Shown one piece after another: positions 27,488 to 49,401 of a stretch of 64,000 nucleotides of DNA. Each line of letters starts with the position of its first letter. The first letter of the stretch is position 1. Both the position numbers and the translations under genes were made by a program. The stretch comes from Gluconobacter sp. Gdi (GTDB lineage: Bacteria > Pseudomonadota > Alphaproteobacteria > Acetobacterales > Acetobacteraceae). The notes under the pieces were generated by a model that saw only the letters and a program-made list of their open reading frames with translations, was not told where the DNA came from and did no database searches. Where the stretch lies: positions 186,001 through 250,000 of the forward strand of contig NZ_BLJQ01000005.1 in assembly GCF_014132155.1 (NCBI RefSeq). Reading direction: 5' to 3'.

Positions 27488-28822
27488 TTAGGTCTGTCTG
27501 TCCGCTCTCCTGTTACCCATCGCCGCCTTAATGGCGCTGATAACCTGCCCAGAGGTAATATTCCGCGTGCATTCAAACTGACGACTGGTGCCTGCATGGC
27601 GCGGACAAAAGAGAAAATCACTGTGGATGAACGGATGGCGAATATCGTGCCAGCAACTGTTGCAGGCATTAGTATTAAAGACCCGATATGGTGTCTGAAA
27701 CTCATTTATCGGATGTGTAAATCCGGAAATCATCACGACGGGCGTGTCAGCCGCCCAGGCAAGCCAGGATAAGCCGCTCGAAAGGCCGACAAAAAACTCT
27801 GCGTGCTTCAGCCATTGGAGGCGTTCCTGAAGGGGCCGTGCCCCCGTCTCATCTTCCGCATTATGAGGAATCTGGTTCCAGTGAAGACCTTGACCATACT
27901 TTATTTCACGATCGATGCAGATAACGCGGTAACCTGATCTCTTGAGAAACTCCACGACATCATACCAACCTGTCGGGTTATTCCAGTATTTGCACTGTGC
28001 ACTGGCCTGACTGGCTATGACAACATAGGGTTCTTCAATCGGTCTTTCTTCAGAAATATCCAGATGCAGAGGTTCTTCCTTGGGAGAAACCCCGAGAATA
28101 TAGCCTGCTGTTCTGTGTAATCCCACGAGCCTGAAATCAGAAGGCTGCCAGATATTATCTTCATCCCCGAAGAATAAACCGATGTAATATGTGGCGTAAA
28201 ACTCGTCTTTTAACGCGCTGAATTCCTGCTTTTCAATAAATCTGATATATGGGTATGACGCAGACAGCAGCTCTTTCATCTGCGCGGATACCATCACTGT
28301 GAGTTCGCATGCATGATCTCGTGCAAAACGCACAGCATATGGCACCCAACCAGCCGTATCGCCGATTGTATTGCCGGCCATAAGAATGGCTATCTTTTTA
28401 CCCTTAGCATCGTAGTCATGCGAAAAAACGAGCATGCCCGCCTTAAAGACTTCAATCCTTGCGTTCAGATAATGCTTTTTCCGACTTTCAAAAGTAGAGG
28501 CACTTCCCTCACCATCAAAAATAACCATGTCAGTATCAAGATCGGTAAGCCGAATACGCCATCTCCCTTCTGGAACCGCAACACGGATACCTTGATTGAA
28601 GTCATATCGAATGCCTGCAGGCCCCTCCTGTGTCGCCACATTTGAAGGACTGGGAAATGTCGTCGTCTCGGTTGATGACGCCGAGGCTACTGCCCCCACT
28701 TCTCTCGGGGCTTTATCGGTCTCGCTAGATGGGTCCTCGGCGACCGGCGCTGAAACAGACGCACTCGAACTGCCAGCAAGCATAATCGACTGGAAAATGT
28801 CATTCACTTTGGCAACGGTCAT
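27488..28822 (-). CDS. Autotransporter strand-loop-strand O-heptosyltransferase, second copy
   Basis: 444 residues. After a ~70-residue low-complexity leader rich in Ser/Ala/Thr it has an N-terminal beta domain (GPAGIRYDFNQGIRV) and a GT-B-like core: NTIGDTAGWVPYAVRFA, ASQASAQCKYWNNP, GLSSGLSWLAWAADTPVVMI. Near the C-terminus four cysteines C387, C390, C406 and C418 (spacing 3, 16, 12) form the iron finger known from TibC/BAHT-type protein heptosyltransferases, which move heptose from ADP-heptose to serines of strand-loop-strand repeats. Its start overlaps the previous gene by four bases (ATGA). The longer leader distinguishes it from the first copy. The likely acceptor is the repeat protein at 39796-41976. 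Confidence 0.9.
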   Translation of the reverse strand: MTVAKVNDIFQSIMLAGSSSASVSAPVAEDPSSETDKAPREVGAVASASSTETTTFPSPSNVATQEGPAGIRYDFNQGIRVAVPEGRWRIRLTDLDTDMVIFDGEGSASTFESRKKHYLNARIEVFKAGMLVFSHDYDAKGKKIAILMAGNTIGDTAGWVPYAVRFARDHACELTVMVSAQMKELLSASYPYIRFIEKQEFSALKDEFYATYYIGLFFGDEDNIWQPSDFRLVGLHRTAGYILGVSPKEEPLHLDISEERPIEEPYVVIASQASAQCKYWNNPTGWYDVVEFLKRSGYRVICIDREIKYGQGLHWNQIPHNAEDETGARPLQERLQWLKHAEFFVGLSSGLSWLAWAADTPVVMISGFTHPINEFQTPYRVFNTNACNSCWHDIRHPFIHSDFLFCPRHAGTSRQFECTRNITSGQVISAIKAAMGNRRADRQT

Positions 28823-30009
28823 TCTGACACTCCCTCAAGGTCGGGAATTTGCATGATTGTGTCGATCACCTGTTGCGAAGAAATCAGTCTGGTGCATTCA
28901 AACTGCTTGTCTGTACCGCTCTGTCGTGGGCACCAGAGATAATCGGCTGGATTGAGCTGACAGCGGATATCATTGGAGCAACTGTTGCAGGCGTTCCAGT
29001 TAATCACGCGGTAGGGTGTTTCGAACTCATTATCTGGCCTCGTAAAGCCGCTGATCAGCACGATAGGCGTACCGACAGCCCATGCCAACCAGCTCAAACC
29101 ACTGGAAAGACCAATAAAAAACTCCGCATGTCGCAACCATCGGGCACGTTCGGCCAGAGGCAGCGCGCCTGTGAAATCTTCCGCCCCATACGGGATATGG
29201 TTCCAGATTGTTCCGACCCCGTTCACCCGGTTTCTGTCGATACAGATGACCCTATACCCTCGCTTTTTTAAGAAGCGGATCGTTTCCAGCCAGCCGAAAG
29301 GATTGTTCCAGTATTTGTTCTGGGATGTTGCCTGGGTAGCAATGCAGACATATCGCTCTTCAAGAGGTCTCCCTCCCTCCATGATCGCAACATCGGGCCG
29401 ACGCGATGTCCGCGAAAGGCCCAGGATGAGCGCCGCATTAGTTTCCAGACCTGCTTCGCGATAATCGACCGGACTATGGTTCCGGGCAACGTCGTTGTAA
29501 AAAATGAGAACTTTATAAGAGGCGTAATAGTCTGATCCCGCCTCTTCTTCGGTCGATACAAGGCGAATATGAGGATAAACCGGGATGAGCAGATTTGCGA
29601 TATCCGGGCGCACGATACATGTCAGGCGACACTCGTGTTTGCGGGCGAACTCAGCTACCTGCCCAAACCAAGCCAAGTGATCTCCAATGCCCCCTTCCCG
29701 CATTCGAACAAGAACAGGCTGGTCTTTCAGATTCATTTCATACGTAAAGAAAGGTTCACCGTCTTTCGTAATCTCGATCTGAAAGCGGAGGTAATATCGC
29801 TTTGAGCTCTGCACGATCCCTTGAGATACATCCTCTGAAAACAGGATCGTATGCGTATCCAGGTCCTTCAGAACAACATGCCAGTTCCCCGCTGGAAGAA
29901 AAACGCGGCAGCCATCATTGAAATCGAAGCGGATGCCTCCTGGCCCTTCTCGTGCTGGCACAATGGGGGCTTGTTGAACTAGCGGCACTGAGGGACTGCT
30001 CATGCTCAC
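28819..30009 (-). CDS. Autotransporter strand-loop-strand O-heptosyltransferase, first copy
   Basis: 396 residues, same architecture as its downstream neighbour: GPGGIRFDFNDGCRVFLPAG, GGIGDHLAWFGQVAEFARKH, ATQATSQNKYWNNPFGW, GLSSGLSWLAWAVGTPIVLI and a four-cysteine iron finger C341, C344, C360, C372 with the identical 3-16-12 spacing. An additional cysteine (C350) lies between. It overlaps the fatty acyl-AMP ligase gene upstream and its twin downstream by four bases each (ATGA), so all are translationally coupled. The two copies clearly arose by duplication but differ throughout, so they may add different sugars, act on different sites or form a heteromer. Confidence 0.91.
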   Translation of the reverse strand: MSMSSPSVPLVQQAPIVPAREGPGGIRFDFNDGCRVFLPAGNWHVVLKDLDTHTILFSEDVSQGIVQSSKRYYLRFQIEITKDGEPFFTYEMNLKDQPVLVRMREGGIGDHLAWFGQVAEFARKHECRLTCIVRPDIANLLIPVYPHIRLVSTEEEAGSDYYASYKVLIFYNDVARNHSPVDYREAGLETNAALILGLSRTSRRPDVAIMEGGRPLEERYVCIATQATSQNKYWNNPFGWLETIRFLKKRGYRVICIDRNRVNGVGTIWNHIPYGAEDFTGALPLAERARWLRHAEFFIGLSSGLSWLAWAVGTPIVLISGFTRPDNEFETPYRVINWNACNSCSNDIRCQLNPADYLWCPRQSGTDKQFECTRLISSQQVIDTIMQIPDLEGVSE

Positions 30010-31817
30010 ATTTTTCCCTCTGCGATTTTCAGAATACGCACCCGGCCAGATCCAAGAGGACTGTGGGTATATTCGCCAAGGATCGGAATGTTACCCTGAA
30101 GAAGCTCTTTCTTTGTTTCCCCTACGCGGATTTTCCCACTCGGTGTTTTCAGGATCGCACTGGCACGCAGGAAAACAATACGGCATCGAGAGGCCGGAAA
30201 ATGTGCACAGATTTTCTCGCCAATAGCTTTCCCCAATTGCGTCAGATCGCCGGCTGATCCTGAGGGCAGTTCCGTCACTAGAACAAGCGTCGTTCCATCC
30301 TCAGTGCTTTCCTCAAATACCGCCGTTGAGAATAACCGAATATCGTCTTCGAACCCTCCCAGGCAGGCGATGATATCTTCTGGATCCAGAACACTGTCGC
30401 CTAGCCTGATACGATTATCCTGGCGCCCAGTGACGTAAAGTATTCCGTCCAACAGGAAACCTCGGTCTCCGGTTCTCAGGAAGGTTCCCTCTTCACCCGC
30501 AACACGGCCCTGAAAAACCTGGCTGTTTTCTACAGGGCGGTTCACATATCCGGTTGCGACCCCGGGACTATGAATACGGATCTCCCCGACGTCCCCATCC
30601 GGCACGACCGCTTCAGTGTCCGCATCGGCAATTCGTACGATAATATCTGAGGGCGGCCTCCCGCAGCCTGCCAAGAGGCGTCTATCGAGAATATTGTGCG
30701 GCGGCATCGCATGACCGTGCGCCAAACCATCGCGCGAAAACTCCCGAAATGATACGCCCTGCCCGCGCTCGCTGGCTGTGACCAGCAAGGTGGCTTCCGC
30801 GAGGCCATAACATGCAAAGAACGCACGTTCATCAAACCCGGATGACGCAAAACGTTCTGTGAACGACTGCATCGTCTCGGCGCGGATATATTCTGCCCCG
30901 TTAAACGCCACTTCCCAGCAGGACAGATCCAGCGATGCAACCTCTTCGGGGGCGATAGACCTCACGCACATTCCGTACGCGAAATTCGGGCCGCCGGAAA
31001 GCGTTGCCCTGTAATGACTAATAGCCTGCAACCACCGTATCGGCTTTTCAGCAACAGCTTCTGGCGGCAACAGAATACAGCGTCCTCCCGTTGCCAGTGT
31101 CATGAGGGCGCCCCCAATCAATCCCATGTCATGAGAGAGAGGGAGCCAGTTAACGCCGCAATCGCCCTGCCGATACCCAAAAGCCTCTGCCTGACGGAAG
31201 AGATTATGTGCAATATTGCGGTGCGTGAGCAGAACACCCCGCGGCGTACGGGTCGAGCCAGACGTGTACTGAATAAGCGCGACGTCCTCCGGTGAAGGAT
31301 GTGCCACACTCTCGGGCTTTGCAGACGGGCGGATCTTGTCTGTCGGTATCCACAGAAACCGTGGACCATCGATTTTATCAGGGCAAACCTTCTGAAATTC
31401 TGTGAGAATACTGCGGTTTCCGATAACGGCCGCAGCCTCGGCATCGTCCCTCAATGCGACAAACCGGTCCCGTGCTCCAAAAGCCTTTGGGTACACTCCT
31501 GAGACAGGCACCAGTCCTGCGCACAAACACCCGAGAAGCCCACGAATGTAATCAAGACTGCTCTCATACAGGAGCAATACACGGGAGCCCGGCGAAAGCA
31601 TGCGTCGCAGCCACGTAGCCAACGCCGTTGCCTGTGCGGCAAGTTGAGACGCTGTTACAGCATCTGTCTCGTTCTCACCGTCTCCGAGCAGAGTATAGAC
31701 TTTGAGGTCTGGCGTTCTTGACGCATGAAAGAACAGCGCATCAACGATCGTACTCCGCTGCCAGTCCAGCATTTCCTTGCCATCAGCGGCAAGGACTGTG
31801 GCGAAGGGCTGTGTCAT
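30006..31817 (-). CDS. Fatty acyl-AMP ligase (FAAL-type)
   Basis: 603 residues. Adenylate-forming core with IQYTSGSTRTPRGVLLTH, then WLPLSHDMGLIGGALM, FNGAEYIRAETMQSFTERF, FFACYGLAEATLLV and LRTGDRGFL, the pattern of FAALs that activate long fatty acids as acyl-AMP and load them onto an acyl carrier protein. The C-terminal lysine motif LKTPSGKIR is intact. It overlaps both the PKS gene upstream and the heptosyltransferase gene downstream by four bases. In mycobacterial lipid pathways FAALs provide starter acyl chains to polyketide synthases, and the coupling here predicts the same for the adjoining PKS. It has no carrier domain of its own. Confidence 0.9.
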   Translation of the reverse strand: MTQPFATVLAADGKEMLDWQRSTIVDALFFHASRTPDLKVYTLLGDGENETDAVTASQLAAQATALATWLRRMLSPGSRVLLLYESSLDYIRGLLGCLCAGLVPVSGVYPKAFGARDRFVALRDDAEAAAVIGNRSILTEFQKVCPDKIDGPRFLWIPTDKIRPSAKPESVAHPSPEDVALIQYTSGSTRTPRGVLLTHRNIAHNLFRQAEAFGYRQGDCGVNWLPLSHDMGLIGGALMTLATGGRCILLPPEAVAEKPIRWLQAISHYRATLSGGPNFAYGMCVRSIAPEEVASLDLSCWEVAFNGAEYIRAETMQSFTERFASSGFDERAFFACYGLAEATLLVTASERGQGVSFREFSRDGLAHGHAMPPHNILDRRLLAGCGRPPSDIIVRIADADTEAVVPDGDVGEIRIHSPGVATGYVNRPVENSQVFQGRVAGEEGTFLRTGDRGFLLDGILYVTGRQDNRIRLGDSVLDPEDIIACLGGFEDDIRLFSTAVFEESTEDGTTLVLVTELPSGSAGDLTQLGKAIGEKICAHFPASRCRIVFLRASAILKTPSGKIRVGETKKELLQGNIPILGEYTHSPLGSGRVRILKIAEGKM

Positions 31818-34800
31818 GGCAGTTGTGCCGTCTGGCCGATCTTGACCCTGTTCAAAAGAAACTGGGACATTTTCCGGATACTTTCATCGCGTGCGAGAAC
31901 AAGGATGGAAACTTCAACACCAAATTCTACCCGCAAGGCCGTTTGAAGTTCAACGCCGGCCAGAGAGTCGATCCCAAGTTCGGAAAGACGTGCACGGTCG
32001 TCAATGCTTGTCGGCTCCAGATGCAGGGTCTGGGCGATTAGAACTTTGACCTGCTCCACAACATAAGGAAGGCGCTCATCCTCCGGCAACGCCGAGAGCG
32101 TGGCTAGACGCTCACTGGTCGCCCTGTTACTGGCATCGGCAAGGCGTACCAGTGAAAAGCGCGCTAACGCATTTGCCCCAGGAACGATCTGTGCCCACTT
32201 TTTCCAGTCAATCTCAACACAAGCAACCTCGGGTAGCTCTAGCGCCAGCATTTCCCGCATGTGTCCCAGTGCGTCCCGGGCCGACATACCCTTCAGACCA
32301 GCCGCTTCCAGAGCGCGGGCTGCCGTCTCGTTCCGGCTCAGCATGCCAACATCCGCAATAGCCCCCCAGTCTACTGCCAGAGCAGCCTCTCCATCTTTCC
32401 AGCGATTAGCCGCTATTGCGCCCAGAACGGCATTGGCTGCGATATAAGCGCTCTGCCCAATATTTCCCAGAAGCGTAGTCACGGAAGAAAACAGCACGAA
32501 ATAGTCAAGGCTCATGCCACTGACCAAACGGTCAAGGATGATTGCTCCCTTGGCTTTTGCCTCGAGAACCCGACTAATCCGCTCCTCGTCCAGATTGTAG
32601 ATCAGGGCGTCGTCCAGCATGCCAGCGCAATGGAAAATGCCTTTGATCGGCGGAAGATTGCTTGTGAAGGCCAACTCATCGAAGACATCTTTCATGGCTT
32701 CTTCATGAGAGACATCAACCTGGATAGTATGAACCTGCACACCCGCAGCACGATGAACCAACAGTTGCTCGCTGATCCCGGTTTCCTCTGGTGTTCTGCG
32801 GCCTAGCAGGACGAGACTCCGGGCCCCTTGCTCAATCAACCATTCAGCCGTTGCCCAGCCAAAGCCACTCAGGCCTCCTGTAACAAGGTAAGTCTTGCCA
32901 TCCCCTACCTGAGGCTGTGTCCGTGGCAATGGTGAGGCTTTGAGATTATCCAGGTTGGAGTAATCGATAACGACCTTACCCATATGTTTTGCAGAAGCCA
33001 GCAGACGGAAGGCTCCTGCAGCATCCTGCGCAGGGAAACTCTCCAGAGGGAGAGGCTGCACTGCGCCCATTTTGGACAGTTCTGCAACGTCTGACAGGAG
33101 GGAACGCATCAATGCAGGCCGCTCCAGCATCATGCGATCCAGGTCGAGCGAGAAGAACGATAGGTTTTCGTTGAAAGGCGCTAGCGGTAGCCCACGCTTC
33201 TCGATGATGTCCTTCTTCCCGATTTCTACAAAACGCCCATAGGGGGCAACGATGGACAGACTGTGTGTCTGCCCTTCTCCGGGCAATGAGTTGAGTACAA
33301 CATCGACCCCCCGCCCCTGCGTGACATCTCTGATCCCTTCCGCGAACTCAAGCGACCGGGAGTCCCAAACGCCTTCACATCCAAGATCCTTGAGGTACTG
33401 CCGTTTCTCCAGAGTACCCGCAGTCGCAAAAATCCGTGCTCCGATCCGTTTTGCCAGCTGGATCGCCGCCAGACCCACGCCACCAGTCCCGGAATGGATC
33501 AGGACTGTTTCACCTTTTTCAAGATGAGCCAGACGGCACAGACCATAATACGCCGTGATGAAAGCGACGGGCAGTGTGGCGGCTTCAAGTGGAGACCCAA
33601 GCCCTTCAATGGGAAGCGCAAAAATGCTTTCAGCGTCGGCAGTGAAATGAGACGCAAAACACCCCGGCCATGAGACGAGATAACGTTCCCCCGGCACGAA
33701 GTCCGTTACGCCCTCGCCGACAGCGAGCACTTCAGCAGACGCTTCCATGCCAAGGCTTTCGCCATGGAACGTATCATCCACAACACTTTGCGGAATCAGG
33801 CCCGTTGCTTTCAGGATATCCTTGAAATTCAGCGCTGCAGCGAGCGTCCGAAATAGCACCTGGCCACGCTGCAACGGTTCCGCGATAAACCGCTCATGAT
33901 GCAAGCGGTCCAGCGAACCATTTGATGCGCTGACAAGACGTACTCCAACAAGCTTCCCGTCAAACGTTTCGTTCGTATGATAAAGTGTTGGAACGGGGTC
34001 TGGCTTGGTTTCCGAAGGTGTTAACCGCCCCACAGACCGTGTGCCAACACGCAGAACAATATCGTCTTCTGAATCCTGCTGAACGATCTCTGCGCATAGC
34101 TGCTGCAAGACAGCCTCATCAACAGTGCGTCCGATATCGACGATCCGAAGCGCAAGATCTGGTCGCTCTGATGCGATCCCTCGTGCAAAACCCCGAATGG
34201 CTGCCTGCCCCGTATCCAGATCATCGCTCTGAAGAGCTTCTACAGATACCGCTCCCCGCGTTACGATCAGACATCTTGGCGCAGTTTCGCTGTCTTCCGA
34301 AATCTTGACTGCCTGAACAAGACGCAAAATTTCTGCGATGCCCTGTTGTCCGGTTTCCCCTTCGTTGGATGAGCACAGATAGAGGATTGCATCAGTCGTT
34401 TGAGACAATGCGCCTGCCAATTCCGTCTGATCCAGACCGTCAATTTTCAGGGTGTCGACCATGATCCCCTGAGCAGCAGAGATTTGACTGAATTTCTCCA
34501 ATAAAGAGCTATCACGTCCCAGAGCCAGTGCGGTTAAAGGCTCCGCGAAATGCGGGAGCAATTCCGTCTGAACCCAGGCGGGACGATAGAAACGGCGGAC
34601 ATTGTCCGAACCCATATTTGTAGCGGTCAGTTTCCGGATAGCCCGCGCCTTGAAGCCGAGAATTTCAGCAACAGGCTCACCCTGTTCCGTAAAGAGTCGG
34701 ATATCGCCCTCAATGCCGGTTTCGGAACGTCGTGTCAGGGCCGCATGAGCCAAAAGGACTTTATGCTGTCCGCCGCGATAGACGACCTGGCGCGCGCCCG

Positions 34801-37800
34801 TCGGAACAAAAACTCTCTCTTCCGCAGCACTGTATCCAGCACCGATCAATGCCTGGAAAGCACCATCAAGCAGTGCCGGATGAAGAAAATACTCTGCGAT
34901 GCTCTGTGCCTCGGACAATTCAAGGCGTGCATAGGCAATACCCTCGCCAGCCTTCAGCTCTTTGATCGTTTGGAAAGCGGGGCCGTATGAAAAGCCGTGT
35001 TCTGCAAGCCGCGCATAAAACGTTTCTGGAGGGATATAGTGTTGCAGGTTGTCCTGAAGACTGTCAGGAGCCACCGGGTCTGCTGCCCATGGTTCATTCG
35101 CCAGAACCCGTAGCTTCGCGTGCTGAATCCACTCTTCTTCGCCATCCTCCCCGTGAGACGATGATACCGTCAGAACGCGCGTTTCTTCGTCAAATGCCCA
35201 CTCGACAACCGGTGGCGTCAGACTATCCAGAAGGAGCGCCTGTCCGATCTCCAAGTCTTCAAGAATTGCAGCATCAGAGCGCTCAATCTGCCGGTGTAAA
35301 GCCAATCCGCCCTCAATGTAGCCCGCAGCAGGAAACAGGCAGATCCCGTCAACTTTATGATCCGGCAGCCACGGCATGTAGTTGCGATTAATATCGGCAA
35401 GCCAACCCGGACGCGACGCACTGACTGGAATACCGAGAACCGGGTGAACGGTTCCGTCCAGCCGATCCCTGCGCGACATTTCAGTCTCAGACCAGAACCG
35501 GCTTCGAGACCAGGCATAATGAGGAAGGTCCGTGCGGTGGCCTCCCGTCAGAAGAGACCAATCCAACGGCACGGCCGCCATATAGAGTTTGGCGATACTG
35601 CGCGCTATGGCTGTGTCTTCCGGATCTTTCCGGCTCAGGCTGGCAATAATAGAGACTTCTCCGTCAACCTGCTGCGCTGTTTCCCTTATCAAACCGCCCA
35701 GCACCGGGTGTGCACCAATCTCAAGGAAAACCCGGTGCCCATCGGCCATCAAGTTCTGAATGGCATCATGGAACAGGACGGGCTTGCGCGCATTGCCATA
35801 CCAGTATTCCGCATCATGCAGAGCATCTTCAGCCCAGCGCGTGCCTGTTACTGTTGAATAGAGCGGAATGCTTGGGTTTTGAGGAGAGAGCATGCCAAGC
35901 GGACTGAGAAGATCCTGACGGATCTCTTCCATCAGGATGCTGTGATACGGCACCTCAACCCTAAGAAGACGATTGAATGTTTCATCCTGATCACAGCGCG
36001 TAGCGAGCTCCCTGAGCGCATTTTCTTCACCCGCAAGTGTGGAAGACTTCGCACTATTGAGAGCCGCGACTGACACCCGGTCTTCATAACCAGGAAGTAA
36101 TTTTTCGGCTGCCTCTTTGCCGGAAATACCGACAGCCAACATCGTGCCACGCCCCGCCAGTCGAGCCTGTTGCTGGCTTCGATGGAAGATCACGGTTACA
36201 GCGTCTTCCAGCGACAAAGCACCCGCGATGTAACTCGCAGCCACCTCGCCCACGCTATGCCCAACGATAGCCGCCGGTGTCACGCCATGAAAACGGAACA
36301 GCTCTGCAAGAACAACCTGAACCATGAAAATGGCAGGCTGGGCGACAACTGTTTCATCAATGCGGGAATGTTCCGCAGGCTTCAGGATTTCATCCAGAAT
36401 GGACCAGCCGGCCAGTTCGGAAAACAGGCTATCAATCTGCTGGATACTGCGAGAAATGGGTTCGGGCATCTGCCTGAGGATAGACTGCCCCATCCCCTTC
36501 CACTGGGAGCCCATGCCAGAAAAGACAAAAACAGGTTGCTGCATCTCACCGTTTCGACGTCGGCCCAGTGTAACAGCAGAGGAAGACTGCCCCTCCGACA
36601 GAGCTTTCAAGCCTGCAATCAGCTCTTCACGATCTTGGCCAGACACGACGGCCTGCATCGGCAGACGCGTCCTGTAGGTTGCAGCAGAGAAACAGACATC
36701 GGCGATAGATGGAGCAGAAGAAGACGCCAGAAGATCTGCATAGGAGCGCGCCAGATTTTTCAACGAGGCGTCTACAAGCGCATTCACGGGCAGCAGGAAG
36801 CGCCCGGACGGCAGCCTGACCACTTCTGCCATAGGGTGGATCGGCTGATCCTCTACTGTCAGCGACCTGAGCAGGGCAACCGCGTTTGTTCCGCCATATC
36901 CAAACGAGTTGACGCCCGCATACACTGTTCCTGCCTCAGCCGTCAGCGGGGTCATGGTATCCTGAGCGACTTGCAGATTAAGGTCCGCAAACGGAATCGT
37001 GGGATTAACCTGTGTTAGGTTCGTCTGCGGTGGAATAGAGCCATGCCTCAGGCAAAGGAGTGCCTTGATAAGGCCGGTAACACCCGCTGCAGCTTCCAGA
37101 TGCCCCAGATTGGCTTTAATAGACCCAATAATCAGGGGGCTTTCCGGGGCTCGCTTATGGCCGATCGCCGTTCCCAAAGCACGGGCTTCGATAGGATCGC
37201 CAACAGGCGTTCCGGTACCATGGGCTTCTACATATCCAATCGTGGCAAGATCGACATGCGCCTTCTGGGCGACTTCCTCAATGAGCGCGCGCTGAGCATC
37301 TTCACTGGGCATCGTCAATGACAGCGTACGACCATCCTGATTAACACCCGTTCCCACGATGACACCATGGATAACGTCTCCATCCCGTTTTGCATCGGCG
37401 AGCCGTTTAAGCAGGACAATGCCGGCCCCCTCACCGCGCCCATAGCCGTCTGCATCTGCCGAGAAGCTTTTGCAGCGCCCGTCCGCAGCCAGAAAGTGCC
37501 CTTTGGACATTGTGATTGAGGCCGGTGGAGCAAGCATCATGTTGACGCCACCCGCTACGACAACATCACTCTCACCATTCAACAAACTGGTACGGGCCTG
37601 ATGAATAGCCACCAATGATGATGAGCATGCCGTATCAATAGACATGCATGGCCCCTGAAGACCAAGATTATGAGAAATCCGCGCAGCCAGCATGGTGGCT
37701 GACGCCGCAGTTGCGGCGAAATGATCCGTAATCAGGTTCCGATTGAGGGGAGAACCGCAGGCCACCAGCCAGTCCAGAGAGAACGTGCCAATAAAGACAC

Positions 37801-38167
37801 CAGCCCGAGTGCCTGCCAACGTGGAAGGAAGAATGCCAGCATTTTCCATTGCCTCCCACACGACTTCCAGAAGAAGCCTTTGTTGAGGGTCCATGAGGGC
37901 GGCTTCACGCGGCGAAATACCGAAGAACAGCGGATCCATTTCATCAATCTTCTGGTCAATGAAGGAACCGCGCCGCATGTAAGTCTTGTTTGGGGTTTCG
38001 TATTCAGGATCGTAAAAGCGCTTGATACCCCACCGATCGGCGGGAATGTCGGATGTGGCATCACCTTGTTCACACAGAAAGCGCCAGAGAGCTTGGGTTG
38101 TTTCAATTCCTCCCGGAAGGCGACATCCGATCCCTACGACTGCCACTTCATTTCCGTAATCGACCAT
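31814..38167 (-). CDS. Type I polyketide synthase, KS-AT-DH-ER-KR-ACP, fully reducing
   Basis: 2117 residues. Domains in order: ketosynthase (about 5-430; C181 in DTACSSS, EAHGTGT near 316, NLGHLEAAAG near 356), acyltransferase (about 545-850; GHSVGEVAA near 637, VPYHSILM near 740), dehydratase (about 905-1190; LPDHKVDG near 935, PAAGY), structural KR half (about 1200-1420), zinc-free enoyl reductase (about 1440-1740; SGTGGVGLAAIQLA near 1555), ketoreductase (YLVTGGLSGFG near 1755, QSAYIAAN near 1906) and carrier protein (LGIDSLAGVEL near 2066). All catalytic motifs appear intact, so each cycle would give a saturated chain. There is no methyltransferase, thioesterase or reductase release domain, so product release needs another protein. 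Probably iterative. Confidence 0.95.
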   Translation of the reverse strand: MVDYGNEVAVVGIGCRLPGGIETTQALWRFLCEQGDATSDIPADRWGIKRFYDPEYETPNKTYMRRGSFIDQKIDEMDPLFFGISPREAALMDPQQRLLLEVVWEAMENAGILPSTLAGTRAGVFIGTFSLDWLVACGSPLNRNLITDHFAATAASATMLAARISHNLGLQGPCMSIDTACSSSLVAIHQARTSLLNGESDVVVAGGVNMMLAPPASITMSKGHFLAADGRCKSFSADADGYGRGEGAGIVLLKRLADAKRDGDVIHGVIVGTGVNQDGRTLSLTMPSEDAQRALIEEVAQKAHVDLATIGYVEAHGTGTPVGDPIEARALGTAIGHKRAPESPLIIGSIKANLGHLEAAAGVTGLIKALLCLRHGSIPPQTNLTQVNPTIPFADLNLQVAQDTMTPLTAEAGTVYAGVNSFGYGGTNAVALLRSLTVEDQPIHPMAEVVRLPSGRFLLPVNALVDASLKNLARSYADLLASSSAPSIADVCFSAATYRTRLPMQAVVSGQDREELIAGLKALSEGQSSSAVTLGRRRNGEMQQPVFVFSGMGSQWKGMGQSILRQMPEPISRSIQQIDSLFSELAGWSILDEILKPAEHSRIDETVVAQPAIFMVQVVLAELFRFHGVTPAAIVGHSVGEVAASYIAGALSLEDAVTVIFHRSQQQARLAGRGTMLAVGISGKEAAEKLLPGYEDRVSVAALNSAKSSTLAGEENALRELATRCDQDETFNRLLRVEVPYHSILMEEIRQDLLSPLGMLSPQNPSIPLYSTVTGTRWAEDALHDAEYWYGNARKPVLFHDAIQNLMADGHRVFLEIGAHPVLGGLIRETAQQVDGEVSIIASLSRKDPEDTAIARSIAKLYMAAVPLDWSLLTGGHRTDLPHYAWSRSRFWSETEMSRRDRLDGTVHPVLGIPVSASRPGWLADINRNYMPWLPDHKVDGICLFPAAGYIEGGLALHRQIERSDAAILEDLEIGQALLLDSLTPPVVEWAFDEETRVLTVSSSHGEDGEEEWIQHAKLRVLANEPWAADPVAPDSLQDNLQHYIPPETFYARLAEHGFSYGPAFQTIKELKAGEGIAYARLELSEAQSIAEYFLHPALLDGAFQALIGAGYSAAEERVFVPTGARQVVYRGGQHKVLLAHAALTRRSETGIEGDIRLFTEQGEPVAEILGFKARAIRKLTATNMGSDNVRRFYRPAWVQTELLPHFAEPLTALALGRDSSLLEKFSQISAAQGIMVDTLKIDGLDQTELAGALSQTTDAILYLCSSNEGETGQQGIAEILRLVQAVKISEDSETAPRCLIVTRGAVSVEALQSDDLDTGQAAIRGFARGIASERPDLALRIVDIGRTVDEAVLQQLCAEIVQQDSEDDIVLRVGTRSVGRLTPSETKPDPVPTLYHTNETFDGKLVGVRLVSASNGSLDRLHHERFIAEPLQRGQVLFRTLAAALNFKDILKATGLIPQSVVDDTFHGESLGMEASAEVLAVGEGVTDFVPGERYLVSWPGCFASHFTADAESIFALPIEGLGSPLEAATLPVAFITAYYGLCRLAHLEKGETVLIHSGTGGVGLAAIQLAKRIGARIFATAGTLEKRQYLKDLGCEGVWDSRSLEFAEGIRDVTQGRGVDVVLNSLPGEGQTHSLSIVAPYGRFVEIGKKDIIEKRGLPLAPFNENLSFFSLDLDRMMLERPALMRSLLSDVAELSKMGAVQPLPLESFPAQDAAGAFRLLASAKHMGKVVIDYSNLDNLKASPLPRTQPQVGDGKTYLVTGGLSGFGWATAEWLIEQGARSLVLLGRRTPEETGISEQLLVHRAAGVQVHTIQVDVSHEEAMKDVFDELAFTSNLPPIKGIFHCAGMLDDALIYNLDEERISRVLEAKAKGAIILDRLVSGMSLDYFVLFSSVTTLLGNIGQSAYIAANAVLGAIAANRWKDGEAALAVDWGAIADVGMLSRNETAARALEAAGLKGMSARDALGHMREMLALELPEVACVEIDWKKWAQIVPGANALARFSLVRLADASNRATSERLATLSALPEDERLPYVVEQVKVLIAQTLHLEPTSIDDRARLSELGIDSLAGVELQTALRVEFGVEVSILVLARDESIRKMSQFLLNRVKIGQTAQLP

Positions 38168-38226
38168 CTAAAACCCGCTTTTCGTCTTCTATTCTGTGTA
38201 GAACGTAACTTATAAAATCTTGTTAT

Positions 38227-39678
38227 TCAGGACGGTTTGACCGCCTTCTGTAACGCCAGCCTATCCGGTTGCCCGCTCTCCGTTCGTGGAAGAGCATCGA
38301 TCCAGACGGCAGTCACATCTGGCAGATTAGGGAAAACATTCCTCATCCACTTTGAAAGAACTTCGAGATTGAAATCTTCTGCGGTCACAAGAGCGACCCA
38401 GGGAGCAGGCAGCCCTTGAGCATCAGGTACGACAAACATCGCACCGTCTTTCACGCCGGGACACTCAAGAAGACGCGTATCCAGTCTATCCAGGTCAAAC
38501 TTGTCACCGCCAAAGCTTATCAGATCATCTGCACGCCCTCTAAGATGCAACGTTCCGTCTGCATCCAGAAACCCGCTATCGCCCGGATAAAACCAGCCTT
38601 CCCTGAATTGTTCGGCAGTAGCAGCTGGATCAAGATCGTACCCGTCTACAACTCCTGTTCCGCTGACACGAATGCAACCCACGACACCCGTCGGGACACG
38701 CCGATGCTGCTCATCCACAATCTCAAGACCAACCCACGGCAGCGGCTGACCCACCTCATCATCGGTGGACTGAGTATCCGTAGAGGCAATGGTCACAACG
38801 CCGCACTCATCCGCACCGTACACGACCTGCACATGCGGTGTGAGCGTCTGACGAATGGATGCACAGAGGGCTTTAGGCAGTTTTCCTCCAGCAACCGTTA
38901 GAAACAGATTGTCCAGCGGTTTCATACCGGGCGGAAGCCGAGAGAGTATTCCTTCGGCATGTCGTGGGGACACAACGGCTACAGTCGGGACATCCTGACT
39001 GAAGACAAGACCCAGTTCAGAACCGGTTACCATCTGAAGACGTGTTCCAGCCACAAGAGCCGACAGAATGATGAGGAATCCACTTGAAGTCTCTGCTCCA
39101 AGCGTTGGTAGGACACGCAATCCCTCAGGGCGGTGACTATGAGACAGGATATCCTGAAACAGGAGATGGTAGACGGCCGTTTCGACGTATCGCGATGTCA
39201 GGGCGATGCGGCGTGCATCCTGGCTCGTTCCACCAGCTACAGAGTAACGGACAACATCTTCAGGCTGTACCGCAATGGTTTCTACACAGTCTGAACCTGT
39301 CTGACAGACATGTTCGAACCATGCCTCATTCAGTACCAGAGATTGCTGGTCGAGCCCTTCAACGGGCTCATCAAGCAACACGATATCCGGTGACAGGATT
39401 TTCACAGAGCGGTGGAAATTTGCATCCACATATCCCGGCAGTGATGCCGAGGGTATTCCGAGACGGGACAGAGCGAGAATGAAAACCCAGTGTCTGTACG
39501 GATGTTCGCAACGAATAGCCACAACAGACGGGACAAGATCCCGAAGCTGAAACAGTGCGAAGGCCACTCGGCTAACATCCTGGGAAAGTTGACCGAAACT
39601 CGCTTCCCCCTCAAACCAGCTCATCGCAAGTGAGGCCGGCTGTCCGGCAGCATATTTCAGGGCCAGACGTTCAAACAT
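38227..39678 (-). CDS. AMP-binding (adenylate-forming) protein with altered catalytic motifs
   Basis: 483 residues, slightly short for the family. The fold is recognisable from VYGADECGVVTIAS (A5), GWFYPGDSGFLDADG (A7) and LRGRADDLISFGGDKFDL (A8). The phosphate-binding A3 loop reads YSVAGGTSQDARRIAL, poor in the usual threonine/glycine pattern and without the lysine. The A10 motif reads PRTESGQPDR, with glutamine in place of the catalytic lysine. Adenylation may therefore be weak or lost; thioesterification, chain release or a structural role are alternatives. First gene of the leftward set, 59 bases before the PKS. N-terminal part has SWFEGEASFGQLSQDV, typical of acyl-CoA synthetase-like proteins. 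Confidence 0.82.
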   Translation of the reverse strand: MFERLALKYAAGQPASLAMSWFEGEASFGQLSQDVSRVAFALFQLRDLVPSVVAIRCEHPYRHWVFILALSRLGIPSASLPGYVDANFHRSVKILSPDIVLLDEPVEGLDQQSLVLNEAWFEHVCQTGSDCVETIAVQPEDVVRYSVAGGTSQDARRIALTSRYVETAVYHLLFQDILSHSHRPEGLRVLPTLGAETSSGFLIILSALVAGTRLQMVTGSELGLVFSQDVPTVAVVSPRHAEGILSRLPPGMKPLDNLFLTVAGGKLPKALCASIRQTLTPHVQVVYGADECGVVTIASTDTQSTDDEVGQPLPWVGLEIVDEQHRRVPTGVVGCIRVSGTGVVDGYDLDPAATAEQFREGWFYPGDSGFLDADGTLHLRGRADDLISFGGDKFDLDRLDTRLLECPGVKDGAMFVVPDAQGLPAPWVALVTAEDFNLEVLSKWMRNVFPNLPDVTAVWIDALPRTESGQPDRLALQKAVKPS

Positions 39679-39729
39679 AGTGCGTCAACCTATTCCTCGG
39701 AACTCTATGAAAACCCTGCAACTAAAAAG

Positions 39730-39770
39730 AAGGAAGTGACGTGCGCCTTGAAAACGCACGTCACTTCCTT
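39730..39770. terminator. Perfect 16-base hairpin after the SLS-Hint gene
   Basis: AAGGAAGTGACGTGCG (39730-39745) and its exact complement at 39755-39770 flank a nine-base loop. On the leftward strand the stem is followed by TTCTTTTTAG; on the rightward strand by TTCG. It sits 26 bases after the Hint gene and about 50 bases before the AMP-ligase start, so it separates the two transcription units on paper. Confidence 0.85.
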
Positions 39771-39795
39771 TTCGTTCAAATATCCAAGTGGTTTT

Positions 39796-41976
39796 TCAAG
39801 ATGCAACGACGGCTACAGCGTCATTTTCATCATCAAGCACATATGGGCCTGCATTCTTCACTTCGATCGTCAGCACAGAGATCGAAAGATCCTGACGGGC
39901 TGGAAGGTTCAAAAGGGCATTGCCATTTGTCCAGCGGACGCCGCCTTCTTCACGGTTATTCCAACCAGACAGGTTGTCTTCCGTGACGTGTGCCGTAAGG
40001 CTCTTCTGACCATTGCCCGCCCAGAGACTGATGTTGCCAACCAAAACGCCAAGATAACGACGATCATCAACCATCGGACCGAAGACATCAGCCGGGCGAG
40101 ATGCACGGGAAACGATGTAAACTTCGTCAATACCGGCAGGAAGCATGAAAACGAAATCTCCGTTTTCTGCGCGACGTGCCGGATTAATCCGATGACCTGC
40201 AGAGGTTACAAGATGAAGATTGGCGTCTTCGGTCAGAACGACAGGCTTGCGCTGGTCTGGAAGAGACATTTCAACAGCACGCTCTTCAAGGGTGCGATAA
40301 ATCGGCTCAACCAGATCACGCGTTACCGCCAGCGGGGCTGCTGAATCGACACTCCATTCGCGGGTCGGACCACTGACAAGACGGACAATACCACCCTGCT
40401 GGCCAAACTCACGACGATTTCCTGTATCCAGATAGCTTTCGCTGAGCGCACCATTGGACCACAGAATGGAGTGGCTTTCCGTTTCAACGTGGAAGTATTC
40501 GTAGTTCGTCATTGTCAGATCGTAGAAGACGCTACGGCCATTGACGAGCATACGGGCTGGAACGAAACGCCCTTCGAAATACAGGCAGTGCTCGGGTGTA
40601 ACCACAAGGTCCTGATGAGGAACCCCAGGGGAAATCGCATCCTTGAGAATACGGACAGGATAGCCAGCCTGATCAACCGGCAGATCCGCCCGAACCTGCG
40701 CCGTTCGATGACCAACCCACGTCACAGGCTGAACGACTTCGCGGCCGGCAACATACGTCAGCACGCGATCACCGATTTTGAGCTCTTCGACAACCTTCTC
40801 CCCGCTCTCTGTGCGGATCAGCGTACCTGCACAGAAGCAGACGAAAGTTGCAATGGTGCTGCCATCAACAGGGTCACGACCCAGCACGAAGTAATCGGTG
40901 CTCTTGAATGCTCCACCAAACGTCGTCTGCCAGGTGCTGCCACCTTCGGAAATCGTGAGAGTATTGCCATCCAGTTTGACTGTGCCGCCCGACACATAGG
41001 ACAGCGTATCAACATCGATGACAGCGCCCTGAACCACCTGCGTTCCGGCAAGAACAGCACCAGCCGCAACCGTAAGCGAACCACCAGAAGAAACAGTAAC
41101 ATTGAGGGATGTTGCGCCAGAGGCAACAATCTCATTGCCACCCTGCAGAACAGTTCCGCCCGAAACCGTCCCACCAGACAGCACACTCTCGGTACCGCCG
41201 GAAGATACAGTGACGTTAGAAGCCGCTGCCCCGCTGGAAACGGTCAGTTTTCCTCCAGCAGCAACAACAGCGCCTCGGAGAACGGCTGCAGCATTCAGAA
41301 GGACATTACCACCCGAAACGGTTGTTGCGCTGACGATCGCGCCACTGCTGGCTACCGTCGTTCCACCGGAACCTACAACCGTCCCGGTCGTCACAGCACC
41401 GGTATAAAGATTCTGAACACCACCGCTGTTGACGGTATCGCTAATCGTCAGGCCACCCGCAGAAACGTACTGCGTCCCCTGGATCAGGGATCCCTTGTCC
41501 GTACCGCCGCTCGTGAGGGTTTCGGTAGCACCCGTATGAACGACGCCGCCCGAGACGAAGCCAGCTCCACTCAGATCTGTCAGCCCCTTGGACGTCAGGA
41601 TCGCAGAAGCAGAGGCGTTGAGGGACTGATCTCCGACCAGCAACCCGCCGCCGGAGGCTATGTTGTAATTGTTAATTGTTCCACCGTTGAAAGCCAGCGC
41701 CGCAGCTGAATTTCCAACAGTTACTCCACTAATAATACCGCCAGATGCAAGAACAGCACCAGCAGACGTCGCAGACAAATTCGTCCCGACATCACCAGAC
41801 TGAGCTATAATAGCGCCATATTGAGCAGCCGTAGCGCCCGATAGCGTATTATTTATTAGAAAATACGATTCATTTATAGTTACATTTCCAGAAGCATCCG
41901 TTGAGGTGGAACCTGATATTGTTCCTCCATTACCAACATAGACACTTCTATGAGTGTAGCTCGTTCCGCCAGCCAT
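39796..41976 (-). CDS. Strand-loop-strand repeat protein fused to a Hint (hedgehog/intein) domain
   Basis: 726 residues from ATG 41976, which has GGAGGA seven bases upstream; an earlier in-frame ATG at 41991 lacks this. Residues ~20-330 are glycine/serine/threonine-rich beta repeats of the autotransporter passenger type (NVTVSSGGTESVLSGGTVSG, NVTVSSGGSLTVAAGAVLAG), the known targets of protein heptosyltransferases. A Hint domain begins at C380 (CFCAGTLIRTESGE) and runs to about 520 (TPEHCLYFEGRFVPARM, ESHSILWSNGALSESYLD). A conserved ~200-residue C-terminal module follows, shared with the protein at 49402-51333. There is no signal peptide and no beta-barrel, so export must use another route. 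The intein-type terminal His-Asn is absent, so cleavage rather than splicing is expected. Confidence 0.88.
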   Translation of the reverse strand: MAGGTSYTHRSVYVGNGGTISGSTSTDASGNVTINESYFLINNTLSGATAAQYGAIIAQSGDVGTNLSATSAGAVLASGGIISGVTVGNSAAALAFNGGTINNYNIASGGGLLVGDQSLNASASAILTSKGLTDLSGAGFVSGGVVHTGATETLTSGGTDKGSLIQGTQYVSAGGLTISDTVNSGGVQNLYTGAVTTGTVVGSGGTTVASSGAIVSATTVSGGNVLLNAAAVLRGAVVAAGGKLTVSSGAAASNVTVSSGGTESVLSGGTVSGGTVLQGGNEIVASGATSLNVTVSSGGSLTVAAGAVLAGTQVVQGAVIDVDTLSYVSGGTVKLDGNTLTISEGGSTWQTTFGGAFKSTDYFVLGRDPVDGSTIATFVCFCAGTLIRTESGEKVVEELKIGDRVLTYVAGREVVQPVTWVGHRTAQVRADLPVDQAGYPVRILKDAISPGVPHQDLVVTPEHCLYFEGRFVPARMLVNGRSVFYDLTMTNYEYFHVETESHSILWSNGALSESYLDTGNRREFGQQGGIVRLVSGPTREWSVDSAAPLAVTRDLVEPIYRTLEERAVEMSLPDQRKPVVLTEDANLHLVTSAGHRINPARRAENGDFVFMLPAGIDEVYIVSRASRPADVFGPMVDDRRYLGVLVGNISLWAGNGQKSLTAHVTEDNLSGWNNREEGGVRWTNGNALLNLPARQDLSISVLTIEVKNAGPYVLDDENDAVAVVAS
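40990..41910 (-). repeat. Array of strand-loop-strand (AIDA/TibA-type) repeats in the Hint protein
   Basis: Roughly 19-residue units built on the pattern V-S-S-G-G-x-(x)-V-x-S-G-G-x-x-x-G-x-x-V recur through about 300 residues, most regular between codons 190 and 320. This is the heptosyltransferase target repeat. Units are divergent at DNA level, so this is not a recent tandem duplication. Confidence 0.8.
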
Positions 41977-42393
41977 GCCTAATTCCTCCATCTCTAGAAG
42001 AGTTAAGCATTTATTAACGAATTATATATTGTTAATCCGTGCTCAGCGCCGGAATCGAACATAGAAGATATTGTTAATTTTAATCAATGCCCATGTTGAT
42101 ATAAAAAAAAACTCAATAACTATGAATTAACGATAAACCTAAATTTCTGCTGTTTTCCGTCGTAAACTACTCGTTATCTAAGCTCTATATTCCATAATAC
42201 CCCCAAAAAATCATTACTTTTTGCTCTACATCAATTCAGAGTCTTGTGGTCACACTAATTTTGGACACCTCAAGTCCTGATTTACTTTCCTAGAACGCAA
42301 AGGATTTCAATCCGGCTTTAAGATCGGAATATCGATGCCCCGAGGTGCCACGAATGCCATCAGAACGGCATCTACGATCTCCCAGCAATCAGG
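41977..42393. other. AT-rich intergenic region upstream of the SLS-Hint gene
   Basis: 417 bases between two leftward genes. The part 41990-42240 is strongly AT-rich and carries the Hint gene promoter region, with several TATAAT-like stretches but no dyad that stands out. The part 42250-42393 returns to normal composition and reads on the leftward strand as a short open stretch (DCWEIVDAVLMAFVAPRGID), for which I recognise no family; it could be a gene remnant. Confidence 0.5.
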
Positions 42394-48686: not shown

Positions 48687-49401
48687 TGGTAACGTGTGGC
48701 GGCGGCGACCAGAATGCAGGCAAACATTTTCCACCCAGAGGACGCGGAAATGACCAGAGTCAGTTCAGGATCACGATAAGAAAGGGCTAACAGCAATCTA
48801 CAAGACACACGGCTGTCAGCACTACTGAACAAAAAAAATATCGTAGCATTTTTGCCTCTGCACTCTCGCAGGCACGCAACATGTTCACATGGCAATCAAA
48901 CATTGGCCTAACGAGCAAACGTCCGCATTATCCTTACAAAACACACACATGCGTCTCAGGAAAAGATCTCTCCGTCCGAGCAAGCAGACTCAAAGCGAAA
49001 TATCGTAAAAATGGCTTCACAAAAGAAAAGGACAATCTTTACAATTCGACAACAAGAGAACTACCCAATGAATATACATCTATAAAAAAGTAATTTTATA
49101 TCTTTTTAATATGTAATCCTATAGAATTATATAGATACAACATTATAATATAAACAAAACATATAAATATAACTAGAACATATAATTTTTATTGAAATAA
49201 CTAAAAATATAAACATTGTGTTTTTATAAATTAAACTAAATATAAAAACGAAAAAACCAAAAGTTCAAGGAATCGTGATCGTTTTTTGCTTGATGTTTAT
49301 TGCTTTAAGAAATTTTAGACGTTAGCGTCTGGTTTCTGCAAACGTCCCAAGCATGGCCATTGTTCGTGTTTGCGAGAATGAAGATTTTAAGGAATAAAAT
49401 C
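48687..49401. other. Long AT-rich non-coding region before the second Hint gene
   Basis: About 715 bases. 48690-48890 is near normal composition and reads on the leftward strand as a 70-residue open frame (ending FACILVAAATRYH) that I do not recognise. From 49030 to 49330 the DNA is extremely AT-rich with many poly-A/T runs, unlike the rest of the window and similar to the region upstream of the first Hint gene. A promoter for the Hint gene must lie here; such AT-rich leaders are typical of genes silenced by H-NS-like proteins. Confidence 0.5.

Follow-up and report, generated by a model that had tools for sequence, protein, structure and literature searches.

A Hint-domain repeat protein, TibC-type heptosyltransferases and a polyketide synthase line at one locus of Gluconobacter sp. 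Gdi: a possible surface-protein modification system

The window analyzed here, a stretch of 64,000 nucleotides from Gluconobacter sp. Gdi (contig NZ_BLJQ01000005.1, positions 186,001 to 250,000), contains six neighboring genes (Table 1) for a repeat protein with a Hint domain (the SLS-Hint protein), a degenerate adenylate-forming enzyme (AMPL2), a type I polyketide synthase (PKS), a fatty acyl-AMP ligase (FAAL) and two TibC-type heptosyltransferases. A sequence-only reading had proposed that this locus may build a glycosylated and perhaps lipid-tailed surface protein, and a locus with all of the genes that it named was confirmed there. AMPL2, which it overlooked, proved more informative than any other gene of the locus: what is new is that the PKS-linked copies of AMPL2 have lost a key lysine of their activation chemistry, while intact, PKS-free relatives neighbor adhesins. 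The locus is tentatively read here as one that modifies a surface protein, with the acyl chain ending on the protein or its sugar; this reading is closely followed in likelihood by one in which the product of the PKS is free or part of the envelope. Clusters of this kind in acetic acid bacteria, including those associated with bees, are currently interpreted as antifungal or metabolite clusters; should their role be to serve a surface protein, a search for a free product would overlook it. If true, the proposal would make this a bacterial example of a polyketide line lipidating a protein, and some Acetobacteraceae Hint proteins would gain a testable role.

AMPL2 and its adhesin-linked relatives

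In a tree of 77 rows, AMPL2 falls in a clade of 41 (support 100/98), within which 36 PKS-linked copies (100/99; 35 named loci and the window) are sister to five PKS-free ones. The PKS adjoins AMPL2 in all 36 of the former. With the motifs that we take to be A3 (the P-loop) and A10, both here and in the FAAL, every one of the 36 lacks the A10 lysine and has an incomplete A3 motif; all five PKS-free copies keep both, and the lysine is also kept in 34 of 35 outside homologues, the remaining one being gapped at that position.

Each of the five PKS-free copies lies beside an SLS-Hint or autotransporter-like gene. The neighbor is an SLS-Hint gene in two Acidisphaera metagenome-assembled genomes (MAGs; TIGR04415 at 117.3 and 87.5 bits), a Pfam autotransporter in a Rhizomicrobium MAG (PF03797, 143.3 bits), and, in two near-identical Sphingomonas genomes, a giant PATR-repeat protein with AMPL2 just downstream. 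The same pair is found in Sphingomonas G582 and G693, where the repeat proteins of 3942 and 3875 aa end in LSWRF and the gap is 22-26 bp; PATR was detected by Pfam in the two Sphingomonas repeat proteins scanned, and a barrel was not. TibC also adjoins AMPL2 in genome G139. Given these adhesin neighbors, the older partner of AMPL2 seems to have been a secreted repeat protein and the PKS the second, so that AMPL2 has the appearance of an enzyme first associated with adhesins, to which a PKS was added later. A loss of activation after the arrival of the PKS and FAAL would fit a retained transfer or docking role, though AMPL2 might also be a mere scaffold.

In the search for more such relatives, the Sphingomonas group gave an AMPL2 match in 3 of 251 genomes (E 1e-70), and among 385 class-level genomes, with at most four candidates per genome scored, the 3 matches (E 1e-90) were all PKS-linked. 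The Sphingomonas pairs, with repeat proteins of 3.7-3.9 kaa, lie at L208 7154-19632, L206 6713-19775 and L210 35-13299, and a divergent gene upstream of them encodes a protein of 288-322 aa. The Rhizomicrobium stretch (L149 1383-15499) carries the autotransporter, an intact AMPL2, a TPR-sulfotransferase fusion, an FAD monooxygenase and a second AMP-ligase, and could serve to modify the autotransporter with an aromatic or sulfated group.

Recurrence of the cluster and replacement of its Hint gene

The cluster was followed in a family sample of 200 genomes (AMPL2 threshold E < 1e-50) and in a scan of named genomes that kept the best 80 AMPL2-like loci and therefore under-counts AMPL2 kin; the two sets share genomes, and their counts are not additive. 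AMPL2 is matched in 17 relatives of the family sample. In 15 of them it occurs together with PKS, FAAL and TibC, and 11 of these 15 have a Hint gene directly upstream of AMPL2; in the other two, G139 and G064, AMPL2 stands beside a Hint gene with no PKS within the stretch examined. Among the best 80 named loci, the AMPL2 of the closest relative shares 87% identity with that of the window, by which the window genome is taken to be near G. cerinus, and the PKS-linked AMPL2 clade spans Gluconobacter, Acetobacter, Asaia, Swaminathania, Commensalibacter, Bombella, Saccharibacter and relatives. TibC lies in the examined flank of 33 of the 35 named loci -- the exceptions, Acetobacter senegalensis and A. 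thailandicus, carry it elsewhere in the genome -- and the Hint gene is directly upstream in 20 of the 34 that could be decided, one locus running into a contig edge. G061 and G136 have no Hint_2 match besides the cluster copy.

The sequence-only reading had staked itself on conservation of the repeat-Hint gene beside the PKS in relatives. A Hint neighbor is indeed conserved in most lineages, though TIGR04415 repeats are present in only five of the nine cluster Hint proteins scanned. Compared with what that reading could see, the linkage is both stronger and more revealing, though it is patchy within the genus. Chance co-location was dropped as an explanation, given that the arrangement recurs in several genera and that the site appears to have switched between Hint subfamilies.

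This change was seen in a tree of 52 sequences comprising a Hint domain and the C-terminal domain (CTD) that follows it, 27 of them labelled as cluster and 25 from elsewhere in the genomes, the latter being mostly best CTD matches rather than a random draw. The cluster label changes six times on this tree, at least four of these changes being forced by well-supported branches (one through a second, farther Hint in L112); shuffled labels need 17.6 changes, and none of 500 shuffles came as low as six. Separate groups are formed by the Hints of Gluconobacter and A. sacchari, of Asaia and Swaminathania, and of Commensalibacter (100/100 each), and the Acetobacter malorum-type Hints, separate too, join a paralogue from the window genome (98/96). 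The same place thus appears to be filled by Hints of different subfamilies: the gene seems to have been kept at the site but replaced, and the cluster Hints to have more than one subfamily as their source. Omitted from the outset were the cluster Hints of L116, L120, L121, L132 and L137; L002 and L003 (short matches) were left out of both trees, and L008 (long branch) out of the careful tree.

The idea that the non-cluster Hints of Bombella are relocated copies of the cluster type, which had an SH-aLRT support of 83 in the quick tree and was examined with one Hint per genome of the five found, was not retained in the careful tree, where one Saccharibacter Hint groups with the cluster Hints (96/91). 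Genes for DsbD-like thiol:disulfide proteins lie beside the cluster in G061 and G158 (L081 13448-15637 and L076 11872-14010).

Genes and motifs of the locus

Table 1. Features of the locus in the window (positions from the first nucleotide of the window)
Feature	Position	Strand	Basis
SLS-Hint protein	41976-39796 (ATG 41976, 726 aa; ATG 41991, 731 aa)	minus	TIGR04415 x4, Hint_2 PF13403
SLS/AIDA-like repeat half, putative heptose acceptor	40852..41976	minus	TIGR04415
Hint_2 domain, C380 (numbered from 41976 start)	40423..40842	minus	Pfam; invariant Cys, TxEH, two more His
C-terminal domain (CTD) after Hint, DDRRxLGVLVG...RWTxGxA...GPY; possible adduct-recognition region	39799..40422	minus	conservation
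Hairpin, 19 pairs, then CTTTTTAG; terminator or attenuator	39730..39770	minus	Hint-AMPL2 gap
AMPL2, degenerate adenylate-forming enzyme, 483 aa	39678-38227	minus	AMP-binding; A3 incomplete, A10 lysine lost
Type I one-module PKS, KS-AT-DH-ER-KR-ACP	38167-31814	minus	Pfam and motifs; no thioesterase domain
Fatty acyl-AMP ligase (FAAL-like)	31817-30006	minus	A3 and A10 motifs present
TibC-B, TibC-type autotransporter/SLS O-heptosyltransferase, 396 aa	30009-28819	minus	TIGR04414 585.1 bits, TibC_1st
TibC-A, TibC-type autotransporter/SLS O-heptosyltransferase, 444 aa	28822-27488	minus	TIGR04414 591.7 bits, TibC_1st

Three four-base overlaps join the last four genes, as had been described, though only those between PKS and FAAL and between TibC-B and TibC-A are ATGA, the FAAL/TibC-B overlap being GTGA. 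The Hint gene, described as just upstream of the operon, is adjacent but not joined, with gaps of 117 bp to AMPL2 and 59 bp from AMPL2 to the PKS. The 117-bp gap contains the hairpin, which is very stable; terminator-like sites of the region number 17 against 15.0 in shuffles, which is no excess, but the others have at most eight pairs. Stable hairpins also occur in the same gap in all 14 relatives folded (the weakest in L143), by folding without a shuffle comparison. Because of the hairpin, the Hint gene is probably its own unit, or else read-through yields less of the enzymes than of the Hint protein, a ratio that would make sense for modifying enzymes and the structural protein they act on.

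The start of the Hint gene at 41976 is preferred over that at 41991 in view of the GGAGG immediately upstream, in agreement with the numbering of the cleavage cysteine as C380 (C385 in the longer frame). The N-terminal repeats and the Hint domain opening the C-terminal half were both recovered, as four TIGR04415 stretches (64.6 bits against a cut-off of 30) and a Hint_2 match of 129.1 bits against 28.4; the Pfam AIDA model PF16168 reached 25.8 bits, just below its cut-off of 27. The Cys, the TxEH motif and the two further His are invariant in 24 of 24 aligned Hint-CTD sequences, in none of which an intein-type C-terminal His-Asn was seen by eye. By sequence, then, the domain carries the residues for breaking the peptide bond before C380, as had been suggested. 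No signal peptide is apparent by eye at the N-termini of this protein and of most of the named cluster Hints, and Pfam detects no autotransporter barrel in the protein.

The CTD, about 200 aa directly after the Hint domain, has no Pfam match. It matches 12 places in the window genome, and the 11 listed start at most four bases from the end of a Hint_2 match; Hint_2 itself has 15 matches in that genome and is found in 154 of the 200 family genomes. The suggestion that the CTD is an adduct-recognition region confined to genomes with the PKS is ruled out by its matches in 105 of the 200 (E 1e-5). A second Hint_2 protein in the window, of 657 aa (plus strand, 49360-51333, about 7 kb beyond the locus), has no NCBIfam match, SLS repeats included. 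A link to type I secretion was considered and dropped: a single HlyD lies above cut-off (C2:499529), away from the Hint_2 places of the window genome.

Both TibC proteins far exceed the TIGR04414 cut-off of 200 bits, and their four iron-finger Cys are kept in 28 of 28 homologues aligned as well. With residue numbers of TibC carried over from PMC4358343 (TibC itself being outside the alignment), a constant offset of 48 places C339, C342, C358, C370, K230, R286 and W305 on invariant positions of TibC-A; the invariant GD of TibC-A (D155) is three residues off the position expected for the catalytic Asp-110. The naming of these genes as heptosyltransferases is upheld by the family scores, the iron-finger Cys and the three sugar-binding positions, and the two enzymes have, as far as their sequences tell, the residues for putting heptose on SLS repeats. 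The window genome has four TIGR04414 matches, and in at least 10 genomes that lack the cluster TibC is no more than 5 kb away from a Hint_2 or CTD match. An HldE-like kinase of ADP-heptose synthesis (TIGR02198) is matched in 16 of 16 cluster genomes, 11 times above cut-off; since every one of the 14 control genomes has a match at E 0.001 as well (2 above cut-off), the five weaker matches are suggestive only. In G136, TibC-B is split into two frames (C1:1742501-1743660, L086).

The PKS shows the KS Cys and His, the AT motif GHSVG, the DH motif HxxxG, and ER, KR and ACP; the simple patterns used missed some motifs in relatives (e.g. the AT motif in G116 and G029). No thioesterase family is among its 15 Pfam matches (stand-alone thioesterases elsewhere were not searched for), nor is a reductive release domain, which bears out the earlier description of a PKS without release domain. 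Its best NCBIfam match, NF041183 (Pks2 type), scores 1197.6 bits against a cut-off of 2400, and it is therefore not a Pks2-type member. The FAAL keeps its adenylation motifs (SGSTRTPRG and SGK) but at 321.7 bits is below the NF006624 cut-off of 600, and is accordingly named FAAL-like. By their motifs, then, the two enzymes are equipped for acyl chain assembly on the carrier protein of the PKS. None of the six genes of the locus encodes a PLP aminotransferase. The PKS reads as at least two frames in Asaia astilbis and A. platycodi (L116, L121), and a second FAAL-like gene lies on contig C1 of the window genome (L105 9241-11052) in a different gene set.

Fate of the acyl chain and likeness to known systems

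On the preferred reading, the locus would make and modify a secreted, self-cleaving repeat adhesin. Heptose would be placed on the SLS repeats by the TibC enzymes, and an acyl chain would be assembled by FAAL and PKS on the carrier protein of the latter. AMPL2, presumably descended from an adhesin-linked acid-activating enzyme, would be supplied with a ready-activated chain, and so could have lost adenylation while keeping a role in chain recognition or transfer; it would follow from that role that the chain lands on the repeat protein or its heptose, probably in the cytoplasm before export. Hint cleavage would then split the modified repeat half from the CTD. The recurrent clustering of a self-cutting secreted repeat protein with heptosylation and acyl genes suggests that the chain may be used on the protein and not be a free natural product alone. 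The most specific form of this proposal -- that the FAAL-PKS line acylates the heptosylated, self-cleaving protein via an activation-dead ligase relative, that the lipid replaces the autotransporter barrel as surface anchor, and that the AMPL2 pairs of Sphingomonas and Rhizomicrobium are a PKS-free form of the same modification -- is rather doubtful.

Several observations weigh against a protein-modification role, which is argued from sequence and gene context. The hairpin and its T-rich tail separate Hint from AMPL2. Four of the nine cluster Hints scanned gave no TIGR04415 match, and the CTD is far more widespread than the cluster, which occurs in 16 of the 200 family genomes. The PKS-free AMPL2 copies represent only three lineages, with no TibC in the Rhizomicrobium and two Sphingomonas genomes tested. 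Fourteen of the 34 decidable named clusters are without an adjacent Hint, 13 of them in the Bombella-Saccharibacter lineage, and A. thailandicus has PKS, AMPL2 and FAAL but, over 21 kb, no Hint and no TibC. Three same-genus genomes were sampled (G054, G131, G180), and none of them matches AMPL2 (E 1e-20) or FAAL (E 1e-60); even inside the genus, then, the line is patchy. All three have TibC and 8-10 Hint_2 matches, and Hint and TibC therefore manage without the line.

Nearly as probable as protein modification is that the PKS makes a free or envelope metabolite, such as an antifungal polyketide or a lipid, and that the Hint adhesin and TibC form a second unit sharing the place. The covered portions of two papers treat such clusters in this way, the Bombella apis type I PKS being named an antifungal candidate (PMC8262860) and the beta-group clusters being described as specialized metabolite clusters (PMC8776678). 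The hairpin may split off the Hint gene, and the clusters lacking an adjacent Hint in A. thailandicus and the Bombella lineage, like the same-genus genomes that keep Hint and TibC, point the same way. On the other side, the linkage persists across several genera while the Hint subfamily changes, the PKS-free kin of AMPL2 adjoin adhesins, and in the window TibC-B overlaps the FAAL gene by four bases.

It is unlikely that TibC, or the GT4-like enzyme that accompanies it, instead glycosylates the PKS lipid to give a glycolipid with no protein substrate. TibC does sit next to the FAAL in Bombella even where no Hint adjoins, and a weakly matching Glycos_transf_1 gene accompanies several clusters; but the iron finger, which TibC needs for dodecamer assembly and heptosylation of TibA, is kept throughout the homologues, and TibC stands near Hint genes in genomes without the cluster.

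The sequence-only proposal of a glycosylated, perhaps lipid-tailed protein gains from the heptosylation and Hint residues and from the linkage; its Hedgehog-type detail, with the acyl product as Hint nucleophile, is its weakest part. Because the end product of a FAAL-PKS line is an acyl thioester and thus electrophilic, it is chemically unlikely in that role. Strict Hedgehog-like lipidation, in which a hydroxyl or amine product of the pathway attacks the Hint Cys thioester and is left on the new C-terminus of the SLS half, has the invariant Cys and TxxH, the missing His-Asn and a conserved domain right after Hint, as in Hog (Hint plus SRR/ARR, the sterol- or adduct-recognition region; covered portion of PMC2362128) in its favor, but is improbable, as it needs reduction of the thioester or a glycolipid hydroxyl, the PKS has no reductive release domain in its Pfam matches, and Hint-CTD proteins are frequent without this PKS.

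Nothing among the literature matches listed pointed to the mechanism proposed here, and none of them concerned an autotransporter together with an adenylate-forming enzyme and acylation. The cluster itself has been described, and the earlier statement that no system with this combination was known is wrong as to gene content: the covered portion of PMC8776678 gives the beta-group clusters a PKS, flanking acyl ligases, hint-domain proteins and an O-heptosyltransferase, with no thioesterase. According to the parts covered of two other papers, the cluster is in all Bombella genomes studied and in other acetic acid bacteria, and is read as not tied to bee symbiosis (PMC9147383), and a Hint-domain protein of unknown function is among the mutations of a cellulose over-producer (PMC11999647).

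Among known systems, the mycobacterial FAAL-fed lipid PKSs (Pks2, and Pks13 with FadD ligases) resemble the locus in pairing a FAAL with a reducing PKS, but the window PKS is under the cut-off of the Pks2-type model, and no lipid transporter or acyltransferase gene is among the six. The bacterial intein-like (BIL) domains are likewise of Hint type, with a weak profile match to the solved BIL structure 2lwy (39 residues, E 0.00067), but the window Hint is of another family and their C-terminal splice motif was not seen. The Hedgehog Hog arrangement shares the order of N-terminal half, Hint and conserved following domain, with the Cys and TxxH, while the window protein is bacterial, belongs to Hint_2, and has a CTD without known relatives and no known adduct. 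The beta-group type I PKS cluster of PMC8776678 is matched closely, in one module of KS-AT-DH-ER-KR-ACP without thioesterase domain, flanking acyl ligases, an O-heptosyltransferase (duplicated in Gluconobacter), hint-domain proteins and no PLP aminotransferase; the paper reads it as a cluster for an unknown metabolite and names the hint-domain proteins for Asaia, and the portion covered mentions neither the degenerate ligase nor its kin beside adhesins, and offers no reading as protein modification. Finally, the TibC and Aah heptosyltransferases (BAHT), with their partners TibA and AIDA-I, share with the locus TIGR04414, TibC_1st, the iron-finger Cys, the Lys, Arg and Trp positions and the SLS repeats of the partner, while the window has tandem paralogues, a Hint-bearing partner without a Pfam barrel, and a FAAL-PKS line attached.

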